This document shows positions 7,718 through 14,495 of a stretch of DNA of 35,568 bases, piece after piece. Numbering within the stretch: the stretch's first letter is position 1; each line of letters begins with the position of its first letter. Under the pieces are notes generated by a model. The model was not told where the DNA came from and made no database searches. It saw only the letters and a program-made list of their open reading frames with translations. The position numbers and the translations under genes were made by a program. The stretch spans positions 1 through 35,568 of the IMG/VR virus record IMGVR_UViG_3300025137_000118; one strand, given 5' to 3'. The DNA is from a virus.

Positions 7718-8004
7718 TGAGCCTTACATCACAACAGCTGAAAGATGCTGCTAAGTTCTTCGGTTATGAAGATGCTGATCTACCTGATTGGGAGAAAGAC
7801 GGTATGTGGAGTGAGGTTAAAGCTGATGTAGTATATCAAGCTCAGTCACCTACCATGTTTAAGGTCGTATTCACCACCAGTAACGGTGACGTACAGAACG
7901 AATGGAAAGGTTACTACAGCACTGCTGACTGTAGATCAGCCCTTAAAGATGCTGACCTCATCATACCACACAACTGGTATTGGACTATCAAGGAAGACAA
8001 ATGA
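7717..8004 (+). CDS. Unknown early protein (95 aa)
   Basis: The start overlaps the previous stop codon by one base and the end overlaps the next start by four bases (ATGA). The 95-aa product is acidic and rich in aromatic residues (KFFGYEDADLPDWEKDGMW and a late HNWYWTIKEDK). It reads as a small mixed alpha/beta domain without cysteines or membrane segments. I recognise no family. The tight overlaps on both sides are strong evidence that it is a real member of the operon. Confidence 0.7.
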   Translation: MSLTSQQLKDAAKFFGYEDADLPDWEKDGMWSEVKADVVYQAQSPTMFKVVFTTSNGDVQNEWKGYYSTADCRSALKDADLIIPHNWYWTIKEDK

Positions 8005-8345
8005 AACAGATTAAGACATCTGGTCAAGGTTGTCATCGTTACGTCAGTAAGTTGCAACCTTTTACAAACCACAGTGGTTCCCTAACAGGGGACTACTACC
8101 CATCCAAGAGACAGTATGTAGTTTGGTCATACGATCACTGGCCTCTCTACATATTTGATAAGACATCTAACATTTGGTTTGGCAATTCTACTAAGTACAG
8201 TCGGACTACTAGCAAACACAGTACTCAGTCTATGCCCCATATCGGTGGTCTGTATGAGGACATAACTTGGCTAAGTCGGAAACGTACAATGTATTTGTGG
8301 TCATATGGTTACCACAGCCTAGTGAAAGAGAGGATTATTGCATGA
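8001..8345 (+). CDS. Unknown aromatic-rich early protein (114 aa)
   Basis: I choose the ATG at 8001 because it overlaps the previous stop codon (ATGA) and follows AAGGAAG; a TTG at 7980 in the same frame has no support. The 114-aa protein is basic and rich in Tyr, Trp, Ser and His (RQYVVWSYDHWPLYIFD, then TMYLWSYGYHSLVKE), suggesting a compact beta domain. It has no membrane helix or metal cluster. The function is unknown. Confidence 0.65.
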   Translation: MKQIKTSGQGCHRYVSKLQPFTNHSGSLTGDYYPSKRQYVVWSYDHWPLYIFDKTSNIWFGNSTKYSRTTSKHSTQSMPHIGGLYEDITWLSRKRTMYLWSYGYHSLVKERIIA

Positions 8346-8599
8346 GAAACAGAGCGTTTCGTAGAGCTAATAAGTTTAGGCTCATTAACAAAGCTCGTAA
8401 GTTGTTGGACCAGAGATGGTCTGGCTTTGGGGATAGTAGAGTTCCTGCTAAGTTATCTACTAGCAAGGATGCTGCTAGACTTGGTTACAATATGCATCGT
8501 TGTAAGTGTGAGTATTGTTCTCCACGTTATCACACTCAACGTAAGATGCACACTGCTGCTATGAGAGACATTCAGCAACAGCTTACTGACATTGCATAG
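8342..8599 (+). CDS. Small CxCxxC protein, putative zinc-binding (85 aa)
   Basis: The ATG at 8342 overlaps the previous stop codon by four bases. The 85-aa product is very basic. A first half rich in Arg and Lys is followed by a cluster HRCKCEYCSPRYHTQRK at about residues 52-68, with three cysteines and flanking histidines that could hold a zinc ion. Many phages encode short basic proteins with a CxCxxC centre followed by a basic tail; this looks like a member of that loose group, whose function is not known. The UAG stop codon is built into stem II of the hammerhead ribozyme that follows, so termination on this gene and ribozyme folding must compete. Confidence 0.68.
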   Translation: MRNRAFRRANKFRLINKARKLLDQRWSGFGDSRVPAKLSTSKDAARLGYNMHRCKCEYCSPRYHTQRKMHTAAMRDIQQQLTDIA

Positions 8600-8663
8600 T
8601 CGAAACAGGGTTAACAGCCCTGTCTGTGTTGATTGGTTATCAGCACACTGATGAGACTAACCA
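8597..8663 (+). ncRNA. Type II hammerhead ribozyme A
   Basis: All parts of a self-cleaving hammerhead are present. Stem II: UAGUC (8597-8601) with GACUA (8655-8659). Core: GAA (8602-8604) and CUGAUGA (8648-8654). Stem III: ACAGGG (8605-8610) with CCCUGU (8618-8623). The cleavage triplet GUC ends at C8624, so the cut falls between 8624 and 8625. Stem I: UGUGUUGAU (8625-8633) with AUCAGCACA (8639-8647), nine pairs closed by loop UGGUU (8634-8638). AACCA (8659-8663) just 3' of stem II can pair with that loop as a pseudoknot. With stem II open, it is type II. The next ribosome site (AAGGAG, 8665-8670) starts two bases later. A second copy at 10276-10345 shows compensatory changes. Confidence 0.95.
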
Positions 8664-8679
8664 CAAGGAGACTGACTAC

Positions 8680-8895
8680 ATGGATAAACTAAGACTGTTT
8701 GCCATCAGGAGGAGGGCATACGGACCCCTTGTTACTACAGATACTGGTGAACCCATCTACTTCGATAACAAGATGGAAGCCAAGACCGTTCGTAACAGGA
8801 TTACTGAGGGTATGGTGTTTAGTTTTGGTAAGAAGGCCCACAAAGCCGTGGTTACTAAAGCACCAGACCATAGATTATATGAGGAGACTAAGTAA
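8680..8895 (+). CDS. Unknown small basic protein (71 aa)
   Basis: The ATG at 8680 has AAGGAG upstream at nine bases; the in-frame TTG at 8626 lies inside the ribozyme and is discarded. The 71-aa product is basic with a Arg-rich start (FAIRRRAYG), a beta-hairpin-like middle (LVTTDTGEPIYFDN) and a Lys/His-rich second half. No family is recognised. It is the first gene on the RNA segment released between the two ribozymes. Its stop codon overlaps the MoxR start by one base (TAATG), so the two are translationally coupled and may be partners. Confidence 0.65.
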   Translation: MDKLRLFAIRRRAYGPLVTTDTGEPIYFDNKMEAKTVRNRITEGMVFSFGKKAHKAVVTKAPDHRLYEETK

Positions 8896-9899
8896 TGAGA
8901 GCATCACTATTAAAAGATACCATCGCTAGGTTATGGGAGATTAAAAGACCTGTAGCTGTAGTCGGTGCACCGGGAGGTGGTAAGACACAATGTATACAGC
9001 AGACTGCCAAAGAGATTGGTTGTCACTTTATACAACGCCATCTACCTACCATCCCAGTAGAAGACTTCGGTGTACCCGACATGTCATCATCTACTGACAC
9101 CACGTTCAAGTACAAATTACCGGAGTGGTTCCCGTCTAAGGGTTCCAAGTATGACGATGGTAAGGGTGGTATACTGTTGTTCGATGACAGGAACCAAGCT
9201 GACAACGATCTACAGAAAGCCCTAGCTAACCTGATCCAAGAACGTGAAGTTCATGGTGTACCTATGGCTGATGGTTGGCAGGTTATCAGTACTGGCAATC
9301 GTAAACAGGACAGAGCCGGTGCTAACAAAGTACTTGGTCACTTGGCTAATCGTGAGACTGAGCTAGAGCTAGAGACGCATCTAGATGATTGGCGTAGATA
9401 TGCTCTCGACAACGGTGCTCGTACCGAGGTTGTTAGCTTCATTGGTTTCCGTCCTAACTTGTTACATGACTACGACCCACAACGTGAGGGTGGTAACCCT
9501 ACACCAAGGTCATGGATGGAGGGTGTAAGTGCAGTACTTGGTGTTGTGTCATCAGAAGCTGAGTACGAATGTTTCAAGGGTGCTATTGGTGAGGGTGCTG
9601 CTGCCGAGTTTGTTGGCTTTATGAGGATATTTCGTAAGCTGCCAAACCCTGACAACACGTTACTCAATCCTAAGACTGCTGATGTGCCGGATGATGCTGC
9701 TACATTGTATGCTATGTCCGGTGCTTTAGCTCAACGTGCTACGCCTAAGAACATGGGTAATCTATGCCTGTACTTGGAGCGTTTACCAGCTGAGTTCTCA
9801 GTACTCTGTGTCAGTACGGTGTTACGCCGTGATCCTGAGTGTGCCGATACTGAGGCGTTCAGAGATTGGTCAATCGGTAACCAATCAGTGTTATTTTAA
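8895..9899 (+). CDS. MoxR/CobS-like AAA+ ATPase
   Basis: This is a 334-aa single-domain AAA+ protein. Walker A is GAPGGGKT at residues 24-31. The Walker B strand is GGILLFDDRNQAD, where the second acid is Asp rather than the common Glu. A sensor-type segment (GWQVISTGN) and an Arg-containing loop (HLANRETELELE) follow. The helical C-terminal part fits the MoxR lid. MoxR ATPases work as hexamers that remodel a client together with a VWA-domain protein, as CobS and CobT do in cobaltochelatase. Here the VWA partner and a DUF3150-like protein lie just downstream (10362-12411), so the trio is probably one machine. The client of such phage versions is not known. Confidence 0.88.
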   Translation: MRASLLKDTIARLWEIKRPVAVVGAPGGGKTQCIQQTAKEIGCHFIQRHLPTIPVEDFGVPDMSSSTDTTFKYKLPEWFPSKGSKYDDGKGGILLFDDRNQADNDLQKALANLIQEREVHGVPMADGWQVISTGNRKQDRAGANKVLGHLANRETELELETHLDDWRRYALDNGARTEVVSFIGFRPNLLHDYDPQREGGNPTPRSWMEGVSAVLGVVSSEAEYECFKGAIGEGAAAEFVGFMRIFRKLPNPDNTLLNPKTADVPDDAATLYAMSGALAQRATPKNMGNLCLYLERLPAEFSVLCVSTVLRRDPECADTEAFRDWSIGNQSVLF

Positions 9900-9924
9900 T
9901 CAACCATAGTGGAGGAAAGAAACT

Positions 9925-10272
9925 ATGACTAGACCATCTAATGCCAGCACAAGCTGGAGAGACAAAGACGTAGAAACTCTTATGTCTATGAAACGTGAAG
10001 GCTTCACTGATGAAGATATTGGTGAGGTACTAGGTCGTACTGCTAAGGCTGTATCGGTTCGTCACAGTAAGGTTGTAAAACGGTACAATGGTACTGGACC
10101 ACAATCACACCACACAGTGCTGTCTGATGATTGGGTAGACACTATCCAAGAGCCAGACGCTACACCAGTGGCAGATGATAACTACGTTATCTGTATCCCT
10201 CGTAAAGCTGTACTTGTCGTATTGGTTGCTGTGTTAGTAGCAGCAAGCTGGTATGCCGGTAAGTATCTGTAA
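9925..10272 (+). CDS. Myb/SANT-like HTH protein with C-terminal membrane anchor (115 aa)
   Basis: The ATG at 9925 follows GGAGGAAAG. Residues about 10-50 (SWRDKDVETLMSMKREGFTD, then EDIGEVLGRTAKAVSVRHSKV) form a three-helix Myb/SANT or GcrA-like helix-turn-helix with the typical 'more entry, then IGxxLGRT' pattern. A polar linker follows. The last 21 residues are a hydrophobic helix (AVLVVLVAVLVAASWYAG) with a KYL end and RK before it, so the HTH should face the cytoplasm. A membrane-tethered DNA-binding protein is unusual in phages. It lies between the MoxR gene and ribozyme B. Tethering of phage DNA or of the MoxR complex to the membrane is a guess. Confidence 0.75.
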   Translation: MTRPSNASTSWRDKDVETLMSMKREGFTDEDIGEVLGRTAKAVSVRHSKVVKRYNGTGPQSHHTVLSDDWVDTIQEPDATPVADDNYVICIPRKAVLVVLVAVLVAASWYAGKYL

Positions 10273-10275
10273 ACA

Positions 10276-10345
10276 TTGTCGAAACAGGGCGGCTATCTGC
10301 CCTGTCCACAGTAGTTGGTTACTATTGTGCTGATGAGACAAACCA
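10276..10345 (+). ncRNA. Type II hammerhead ribozyme B
   Basis: This has the same architecture as ribozyme A. Stem II: UUGUC (10276-10280) with GACAA (10337-10341). Core: GAA (10281-10283) and CUGAUGA (10330-10336). Stem III: ACAGGGC (10284-10290) with GCCCUGU (10299-10305). Cleavage follows C10306 of GUC. Stem I: CACAGUAGU (10307-10315) with ACUAUUGUG (10321-10329), loop UGGUU (10316-10320). AACCA at 10341-10345 can pair with the loop. Compared with copy A, seven of nine stem I pairs are changed on both sides and still pair, while core and loop are identical. It starts three bases after the stop codon of the upstream gene and ends just before the ribosome site of the DUF3150-like gene. Confidence 0.95.
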
Positions 10346-10361
10346 AGTGGAGTATATAAAT

Positions 10362-11219
10362 ATGGTGAAGCTAACCAACAAAGCTGTCCTTGTACAGTTA
10401 TCAATAGGTGTTCCGACACTTACACGACTAGACAGAGCGATCAGTAGTAAACTTACAGCTGATGCCGGTGCTGTTGATGGTAGTATCCGTGGTTATAAAT
10501 CACTGCTACCAAATGCAGACTTGCTTAAACAGATTACTACACTGAAGAACTCTATCCGTAGTAAGTTCTATACCAACACGTTACCTTGGGGGATTAAAGG
10601 TACGTACATCTTACCTACTAGAAACTACATGGACTTTGTGTCTGACTTCAAACAAGACAGACATAAGTTTTTAGGTATGGTTGCTAAGTTTTCAGATAGT
10701 TATTCTGACATGGTTCATGCTGCTAGTGTGTCATTGGGTAAGGGGTTTAATTCTGCTGACTACCCTACACAAGAGAACCTAGAAGCATCGTTCTATATGA
10801 ATATGCGTACTAGTAGTTTGCCTGCTGAAGACTTTCGTTACAACGATATGTCTGATGAAGAAGAACAGGCTATACGTGACAGTGTAACACAAGAAGTTAC
10901 TGATGCTGCACAGGTTGCCATGACAGAAGTATGGCAGCGTCTGTATGATCGTACTAAAAGATTTGCTGACAAGCTCAATGATCCCGCTGCTGTGTTCAAC
11001 AACAGTACCATTGAGTTGTTGACAGAACTTTGTTCTATACTACCGCGTCTTAACTTTGCTGATGATCCCAATCTAGAGAACATGAGACAACAAGTTGAGC
11101 GTACTCTTACAGGTTACCACCCCGATCACTTCCGTAATGATCCTGTCTTTCGTAAGGATCGTGGTCAAGCTGCGTCTGATATTGTTGCTCAGATGGCAGC
11201 ATTTATGGAACCATCATAA
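10362..11219 (+). CDS. DUF3150-like protein, partner of the MoxR/VWA pair
   Basis: I choose the ATG at 10362, nine bases after GGAG; a GTG at 10347 overlaps that ribosome site. The 285-aa protein is soluble and largely helical. It begins with a beta-strand NKAVLVQLSIGVPTLTRLD, then a helical region with R/K-rich parts and a middle GTYILPTRNYMDFVSDFK. This layout (a strand-rich start followed by coiled helices, between a MoxR ATPase and a VWA protein) matches the DUF3150 family of plasmids and phages. Its role is unknown; an adaptor or regulator of the ATPase complex is likely from the constant gene order. It is the first gene after ribozyme B, so its mRNA would start with a processed 5'-OH end. 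Confidence 0.65.
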   Translation: MVKLTNKAVLVQLSIGVPTLTRLDRAISSKLTADAGAVDGSIRGYKSLLPNADLLKQITTLKNSIRSKFYTNTLPWGIKGTYILPTRNYMDFVSDFKQDRHKFLGMVAKFSDSYSDMVHAASVSLGKGFNSADYPTQENLEASFYMNMRTSSLPAEDFRYNDMSDEEEQAIRDSVTQEVTDAAQVAMTEVWQRLYDRTKRFADKLNDPAAVFNNSTIELLTELCSILPRLNFADDPNLENMRQQVERTLTGYHPDHFRNDPVFRKDRGQAASDIVAQMAAFMEPS

Positions 11220-11241
11220 CCCATACAAGGAGGATAATTGT

Positions 11242-12411
11242 ATGACTTCAATTGCACCCATTGTGGACTTCCACAGTAGAACTTTATCACCTGCCGAAAA
11301 GCAGGTGCTAATCGACAAAATATCTAAGGCCAAGACTAGCCTGATCTTAGATCATCCTTTCTTCGGTGCTATAGCGTTGAATATGCCAACCCTATTTGAC
11401 AGTACTATACTAACAGCATGTACTAACGGTAAACGTATCAAGTACAATCCCGACTTTCTTGGTAGTTTACGTGATGCTCAGGTTACGTTTCTAGTAGCTC
11501 ATGAGTGTTTCCACCCTATGCTGGAGCATATATGGCGTCTCATGGGCCGTGATCCGCAGTTGTGGAACATAGCTGGTGACATTGTGATCAACCAGATACT
11601 TACTAACGAGGGTATCGGTGAGTTTATTGAGGGCGGTATACTAGACGAAGACCTCTACAATGCTGGTGATGGCAACACTGACAGTATCTATAACTTGTTA
11701 CCACCCCAACCAAAGGGGGGTACTTGGCGGTTTACACAGGGCGGTATCGGTGACGATATGGAAGCACCAGATGGTAGCCCTGCTGAACAGGCACAAGAGC
11801 AAGCTGAGTGGCGTATCAAGATAGCGCAAGCTGCACAAGCTGCTAAGATGTGTGGTAAACTCAGTGGTGACATGGAGCGTCTAGTTGGTTCTATACTAAA
11901 CGCTAAGGTTCCGTGGGAAACACTGTTGTTTAGGTTCTTTGAGAAAGCTACCAGTGGTATGCGTACTTTCGCTAGACCTAATCGCCGGTTTATACAGCAG
12001 GGTATTTACTTACCTACAGCTACAGGTGTTCAGCTTGGTGACATTGTGTTTGCTGTAGACTGCTCTGGTTCTGTTAGTGACGATGAGATAGACCAAGCTG
12101 CTGCTGAAGTCATCAAGGTGCATGAGGAACTACGTCCTAAGAAACTTCACGTAGTGTACTTCGACAGTCGGGTGTCTCACATGGATACGTTTGAACCTGA
12201 TGATGACGTTACTGTTACGTCTCATGGTGGAGGCGGTACAGCGTTCAGCCCCATATGGGACTACATCTACGACAACGACATAGACCCAGTTGCTTGTGTC
12301 GTTATCACTGATCTAGTTTGTTACGACTTTGGTGACGAACCAGACTACCCAGTTCTATGGGTGTCAACACATTCAGATCAAGCTGACTTCGGTGAAGTGG
12401 TAATGATGTGA
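11242..12411 (+). CDS. Metallopeptidase-like plus VWA-domain protein (CobT-like partner)
   Basis: The ATG at 11242 follows AAGGAGGAT. The 389-aa protein has two parts. The N-terminal part carries a zinc-protease motif HECFH at residues 87-91 (context VAHECFHPMLEH), as in the DUF2201 putative metallopeptidase family. The C-terminal part is a VWA-like domain with MIDAS motif DCSGSVS at residues 273-279 and later acidic VITDLV. The DUF2201 plus VWA-like pair is a known domain combination, often next to a MoxR-type ATPase. MIDAS binds Mg2+ and recruits the client for the ATPase; the HExxH motif suggests actual peptidase activity. No signal peptide is present, so it acts in the cytoplasm. Confidence 0.88.
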   Translation: MTSIAPIVDFHSRTLSPAEKQVLIDKISKAKTSLILDHPFFGAIALNMPTLFDSTILTACTNGKRIKYNPDFLGSLRDAQVTFLVAHECFHPMLEHIWRLMGRDPQLWNIAGDIVINQILTNEGIGEFIEGGILDEDLYNAGDGNTDSIYNLLPPQPKGGTWRFTQGGIGDDMEAPDGSPAEQAQEQAEWRIKIAQAAQAAKMCGKLSGDMERLVGSILNAKVPWETLLFRFFEKATSGMRTFARPNRRFIQQGIYLPTATGVQLGDIVFAVDCSGSVSDDEIDQAAAEVIKVHEELRPKKLHVVYFDSRVSHMDTFEPDDDVTVTSHGGGGTAFSPIWDYIYDNDIDPVACVVITDLVCYDFGDEPDYPVLWVSTHSDQADFGEVVMM

Positions 12412-14129: not shown

Positions 14130-14340
14130 TATGTCGGATGCTAAGGAGTTTACGTCTGTATGGAATAGGTACAGCCAGAACTTTACACCGCTTATAGCTT
14201 GTCCAGAGTGCAAACATAGCGACAGAGCAGGACAAGTTGAGTACGAAAGGTTTGAGTTGTTTGGCGGTATATACGAACCCGTAGGTTACTGGGTTTCGTG
14301 CGGAAACTGTAGTGGCTCAGGTAAAATACTAAAAGACTAA
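14119..14340 (+). CDS. Small zinc-ribbon protein with DnaJ-type CxxCxGxG (73 aa)
   Basis: I take the ATG at 14119, which overlaps the end of the preceding gene by 11 bases; a second ATG at 14131 is also possible. The 73-aa product carries CPEC at about residues 28-31 and CGNCSGSGKI near the end, two CxxC pairs separated by about 30 residues that should bind one zinc. The second pair has the CxxCxGxG form of the DnaJ cysteine-rich domain. In other phages such single-zinc domains sit next to, or are fused into, replication proteins. Here it precedes the DUF3310-PolA block by two genes. Its role is not known. Confidence 0.65.
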   Translation: MTYDMSDAKEFTSVWNRYSQNFTPLIACPECKHSDRAGQVEYERFELFGGIYEPVGYWVSCGNCSGSGKILKD

Positions 14341-14345
14341 AAAAA

Positions 14346-14495
14346 GGGGGCGGCTAGTTTGTGAAGCACAGGTAGTTGTGAAGGTTAATGTAGATGCCGC
14401 CCCCATTTAGTCTAGGGAAAAAGGTAGTCGTAGAGGTCAGCGATTAAAACAATATATTTGACCCAACTGCGTCCTCGGCCAACCTCTACAACTAC
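14346..14495 (+). promoter_or_regulatory. Structured intergenic RNA with competing stems, attenuator-like
   Basis: This 200-base gap holds two strong structures. GGGGGCGGC (14346-14354) pairs perfectly with GCCGCCCCC (14396-14404). GTAGTCGTAGAGGT (14424-14437) pairs with ACCTCTACAACTAC (14482-14495) with one mismatch. The loop of the first contains GTAGTTGTGAAGGTT (14372-14386), which can pair with the same 3' strand, so two folds compete. A 17-codon frame (14394-14447) overlaps the switch. It lies between the zinc protein and the replication operon. No T run follows, so it is not a simple terminator. Confidence 0.5.

Follow-up and report, generated by a model that had tools for sequence, protein, structure and literature searches.

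Gene context of the candidate ribozymes

The DNA studied here is the 35.6-kb IMG/VR virus record IMGVR_UViG_3300025137_000118, analysed over its full length of 35,568 nucleotides (the window). Among the proteins encoded on the contig are a terminase, portal, helicase and primase, together with a DNA polymerase whose nearest counterparts, at 35–38%, are those of the Rhizobium RHph_TM and Pseudomonas KPP25 phages, so that the lineage is without a close cultured member in the collection searched. An N4-like assignment was dropped on account of this polymerase relationship and of a 2765-aa protein without RNA polymerase match, which resembles a "structural protein" of KPP25-like phages. At 14331–14445 a strong inverted repeat of high G+C content precedes a T run and is probably a terminator; a weak suhB-like match below the cut-off also falls there, on the minus strand.

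The region of interest comprises the following features, all on the plus strand; the basis of an assignment is given in parentheses.

8342–8599, +, upstream gene, 85 aa if the start is ATG 8342; its stop codon UAG (8597–8599) overlaps stem II
8597–8663, +, predicted type II hammerhead ribozyme A including the 3′ pseudoknot strand (sequence, folding, RF02276, descriptor, clade model)
8598–8601, +, stem II 5′ strand AGUC, sharing the last two bases of the upstream stop codon
8602–8605, +, conserved core GAA and A15.1 (direct reading)
8605–8623, +, stem III hairpin (direct reading, folding)
8622–8624, +, GUC cleavage triplet (direct reading); cut C8624/U8625 predicted from hammerhead chemistry
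8625–8647, +, stem I hairpin with loop UGGUU (8634–8638); 5′ end of the predicted downstream product
8648–8654, +, conserved core CUGAUGA
8655–8658, +, stem II 3′ strand GACU
8659–8663, +, AACCA, pseudoknot strand for loop I, 1 nt 5′ of the Shine-Dalgarno sequence; covaries in relatives
8665–8670, +, Shine-Dalgarno-like AAGGAG of the downstream gene (direct reading)
8680–8895, +, downstream gene, 71 aa; homologues precede the ATPase gene in many relatives
8895–9899, +, AAA/MoxR-type ATPase (phrog_1297)
9925–10272, +, 115-aa protein, weak similarity to a transcriptional regulator family (E about 1e-3 only)
10276–10345, +, predicted type II hammerhead ribozyme B, predicted cut after C10306 (RF02276, descriptor, clade model)
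10362–11219, +, 285-aa gene 3′ of ribozyme B, conserved in relatives

Ribozyme A occupies the gap from the upstream stop codon to the downstream Shine-Dalgarno sequence. The same layout is found 1.7 kb downstream for ribozyme B, with the upstream stop at 10272 and the downstream start at 10362. Such packing is common among hammerheads of phage loci: a same-strand start codon with a Shine-Dalgarno sequence lies at most 40 nt away in 79% of cases, compared with 17% for randomly chosen positions and 4% for the opposite strand, and the median distance is 24 nt among hammerheads having such a start within 120 nt. The upstream stop codons cluster 2–6 nt 5′ of GAAA, with a mode of 2 as in ribozyme A, and almost none fall within the element; part of this tightness at stop and start follows from the compactness of phage genomes. 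An early status of the gene block is plausible.

Structure of ribozyme A

A preliminary description had placed a complete type II hammerhead core at 8597–8663 between two phage genes. Direct reading of positions 8000–9400 reproduced all elements with their coordinates, and the flanking genes are the 85-aa gene upstream and the 71-aa gene downstream. The NUH cleavage triplet as well as the CUGANGA and GAAA (8602–8605) core motifs are all present, and the A15.1-U16.1 pair corresponds to A8605-U8623. Stem I is formed by 9 pairs (8625–8633 with 8639–8647, one of them U-G) and stem III by 6 Watson-Crick pairs (8605–8610 with 8618–8623), extended by U8611-G8617 and U8612-A8616. Stem II contains 4 pairs (8598–8601 with 8655–8658), or 5 if U8597-A8659 replaces one pair of the pseudoknot. 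The counts proposed before (9 for stem I, at least 6 for stem III, 4–5 for stem II) are thus borne out. The same applies to the proposed complementarity of loop UGGUU (8634–8638) and AACCA (8659–8663), which is complete.

Minimum free-energy folding of 8594–8664 returns precisely this three-way structure (−24 kcal/mol, z −3.4), and none of 200 shuffles was as stable. Folding and descriptor agree on a three-way junction in which stem II is open and stems I and III are closed by loops. In the longer native context (8540–8720) stem II of copy A has a probability of 0.16 in a model without pseudoknots, compared with about 0.75 for stem II of copy B; given this weakness, folding of A may depend on the pseudoknot or on the timing of transcription.

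A strict descriptor covering hammerhead types I, II and III on both strands yielded two matches in the window, both of type II and on the plus strand (A, 8597–8659; B, 10276–10341), and no match in 20 dinucleotide-preserving shuffles of it. A looser type II scan of 204 sequences, namely the window and phage loci, returned 217 hammerheads, and none when these sequences were reversed. About 120 of the scanned loci had been picked by a hammerhead-like pattern, and the count of 217 therefore says nothing about hammerhead frequency; the relatives found through the ATPase gene were picked irrespective of a ribozyme. The hammerhead element of the window is beyond chance.

Family assignment

In a search with the single Rfam family Hammerhead_II (RF02276), ribozyme A scored 32.4 bits (E 1.5e-6) and ribozyme B 34.8 bits (E 3.5e-7), both below the curated cut-off of 37 bits, which is a conservative filter and not a structural feature of the family. 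A cmscan of the window and the region against all of Rfam with E up to 10 reported no hammerhead and only chance matches, a discrepancy that probably stems from the search filters. RF02277 (HH10) gave no match in the window and likewise none in its controls. Relatives located via the neighbouring ATPase gene bear the same element; many of them exceed the RF02276 cut-off, with a maximum of 53.2 bits, and in some of these the ribozyme is found in the same gene context.

A covariance model of the clade (R1) was built from the elements of 24 relatives, leaving out the window and its near-identical contigs L124–L126. It assigns 70.5 bits to A (E about 1e-17) and 73.6 bits to B (E about 2e-18), these E values being rough, and found nothing else in the window. 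A covariance-model match had been set beforehand as a check on the preliminary description; it was obtained with RF02276, though under the curated cut-off, as well as with R1.

Covariation of stems and pseudoknot

Among the 24 relatives, each of the three stems shows compensatory changes, and so does the pseudoknot. In their alignment 95.5% of the cells are paired, and two-sided changes occur in 18 of 23 pairs, amounting to 128 cells versus 34.5 in shuffles. The covariation score is 0.624 versus 0.188 in shuffles and drops to 0.08–0.18 when the structure is slid by 1–3 columns. The pseudoknot helix displays two-sided changes in 3 of its 5 pairs. In a wider set of 188 distinct phage hammerheads, many of them related so that the counts are not independent events, at least 5 pairs between loop I and the 3′ tail are possible in 50%, versus 14% with exchanged partners; UGGCU/AGCCA and UGGUU/AACCA are the commonest forms. 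The covariation within the clade indicates selection on the hammerhead fold. Taken with the RF02276 match, the R1 score of A and the relatives passing the cut-off, these compensatory changes support the assignment of A as a type II hammerhead.

Distribution among related and cultured phages

At site A, directly 5′ of the homologue of the 71-aa gene, a ribozyme is also present in L129, L145/L147 and L182, and in several relatives without a detected homologue of this gene it is located directly 5′ of the ATPase gene. No ribozyme is found at site A of L127 and L128, the closest ATPase relatives (72%) beyond the near-identical contigs, nor did a search for degenerate hammerheads in these two detect any. 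The ribozyme is thus not essential in the clade. The site is occupied there by another hairpin; in L127 (4730–4800, the gap at site A) it is stable (z −3.0) and has no convincing counterpart in Rfam.

Occupation of site B was seen in L124 and L126 alone, both near-identical contigs. Ribozyme B carries the same pseudoknot as A (loop UGGUU, 10316–10320, with AACCA, 10341–10345). It is 87% alike to the site-A ribozyme of L129, to which ribozyme A of the window itself is only 74% alike. From this one comparison, the closer relationship of B suggests that the ribozyme may have been copied between sites.

The genomes of KPP25 and RHph_TM3_14A contain no RF02276 match. DNA searches of cultured phages retrieved only a weak match in Aphanizomenon phage CL131 (MG209611) with copy A and nothing convincing with copy B. 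Both CL131 and Streptomyces phage Urza (MN234189) are cultured phages with RF02276 matches among small co-directional genes, arranged in tandem in Urza, and differ from the window phage in showing no detected kinship to it beyond the ribozyme. Urza has 10 such matches at 41.2–49.0 kb, 7 of them above the cut-off and none annotated in the stretch viewed, compared with 2 in the window phage. The type II match in CL131 (97349–97417; 36.2 bits, just below the cut-off) extends over the annotated gp126 start; a start codon located 14 nt 3′ of the ribozyme would suit better, and the gp126 start may therefore be annotated too early. In another viral contig (L032), about 3 kb of sequence (8402–11317) contain seven matches to the hammerhead pattern.

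Natural type II hammerheads in which loop I and the 3′ tail pair as a pseudoknot have been described by Perreault et al. (2011; PMC3088659), who also reported hammerhead clusters around (pro)phage genes and proposed a role in mRNA processing. The window copies share the permutation, the core and the loop I-tail pseudoknot, a trait of most type II members, with these RF02276 ribozymes, several copies of which flank phage genes; they differ in scoring slightly under the family cut-off and in a stem I of 9 pairs. The HHphage variant of haloviruses HF1 and HF2 likewise lies close to a start codon, 13 nt 5′ of that of a helicase gene within a lytic virus's early region (PMC3088659). In contrast to the canonical window copy, HHphage is a structural variant of the hammerhead and belongs to archaeal viruses. 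Type II hammerheads of phages are hence already known, and the lineage of the window phage is a further carrier; no hammerhead was reported from this lineage in the literature searched, whose coverage of subscription journals was sparse.

Proposed function and alternatives

Ribozyme A is very probably a natural type II hammerhead that cuts a polycistronic phage RNA and, together with B, divides the operon. The best-supported role is such cutting of polycistronic mRNA into two products that would both have hairpin-protected ends. In the proposed sequence of events ribozyme A would fold in the gap that separates the upstream stop codon from the downstream Shine-Dalgarno sequence, with the pseudoknot of loop I and AACCA holding the fold, and we infer that it would cut itself at C8624/U8625 during or after transcription. 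Hammerhead chemistry would leave the upstream product with the stem III hairpin at its 3′ end, terminating in a 2′,3′-cyclic phosphate, and would give the downstream product a 5′-OH start whose nucleotide is already paired in stem I; the stem I hairpin also folded on its own as this 5′ end. A and B would thereby split the operon into shorter, hairpin-capped mRNAs, and the expression or decay of each segment could be set separately.

Ends of this kind resist 5′-end-dependent RNase E and 3′ exonucleases in bacterial RNA decay, and we infer protection of the product ends as the benefit of cleavage. No phage hammerhead with a demonstrated benefit from processing was found in the literature. There is precedent in a pseudoknotted type II hammerhead whose in vitro cleavage proceeds at 0.5 mM Mg, and in tandem hammerheads of bacteria that cleave a polycistronic RNA (PMC3088659).

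A ribosome that terminates upstream or initiates downstream would sit on stem II or on the pseudoknot strand of A, and a link to translation is therefore possible. Gating by translation, in which such a ribosome would unfold the ribozyme and cleavage would occur only on ribosome-free RNA, is conceivable though rather unlikely; if true, it would couple the cutting of mRNA to translation or to how far the ribosome lags behind the polymerase.

That the hammerhead is folded but inactive or vestigial, kept as an intergenic spacer or hairpin, is improbable. Such a remnant would agree with the related phages that lack the element and with near-identical contig L126, in which one change disrupts the A8632-U8640 pair close to the stem I loop. 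The core positions, however, are all intact in the two copies, and the other changes in L126 fall in loop III, convert C17 to A (an allowed H17) and turn a U-G pair in stem I of copy B into C-G; the selection on the fold that the clade covariation indicates likewise speaks against a relic.

Less probable still is a release of the segment 8625–10306 (71-aa, ATPase and 115-aa genes) by A and B and its circularisation by an RNA ligase or the reverse reaction. Two copies in the same orientation flank this three-gene block, the predicted ends are a 5′-OH and a 2′,3′-cyclic phosphate, and the possibility was raised by Perreault et al., who nevertheless detected no spliced or circular products (PMC3088659); many relatives, moreover, have a single copy near the block. 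A transcription terminator or simple regulatory hairpin instead of a ribozyme is hardly credible and was rejected, for although stem III is an intergenic hairpin rich in G+C, there is no T run, the element is absent from the list of the terminator scan, and the conserved CUGAUGA/GAAA core and the pseudoknot would be left unexplained.

A review of 2017 regarded the role of prokaryotic hammerheads as still open and remarked on their link to phages (PMC6155905). The packing of stop codon, ribozyme and Shine-Dalgarno sequence in the window phage makes this question testable with respect to both mRNA processing and a link to translation, and with Streptomyces phage Urza and Aphanizomenon phage CL131 cultured phages carrying copies are on hand for such tests.
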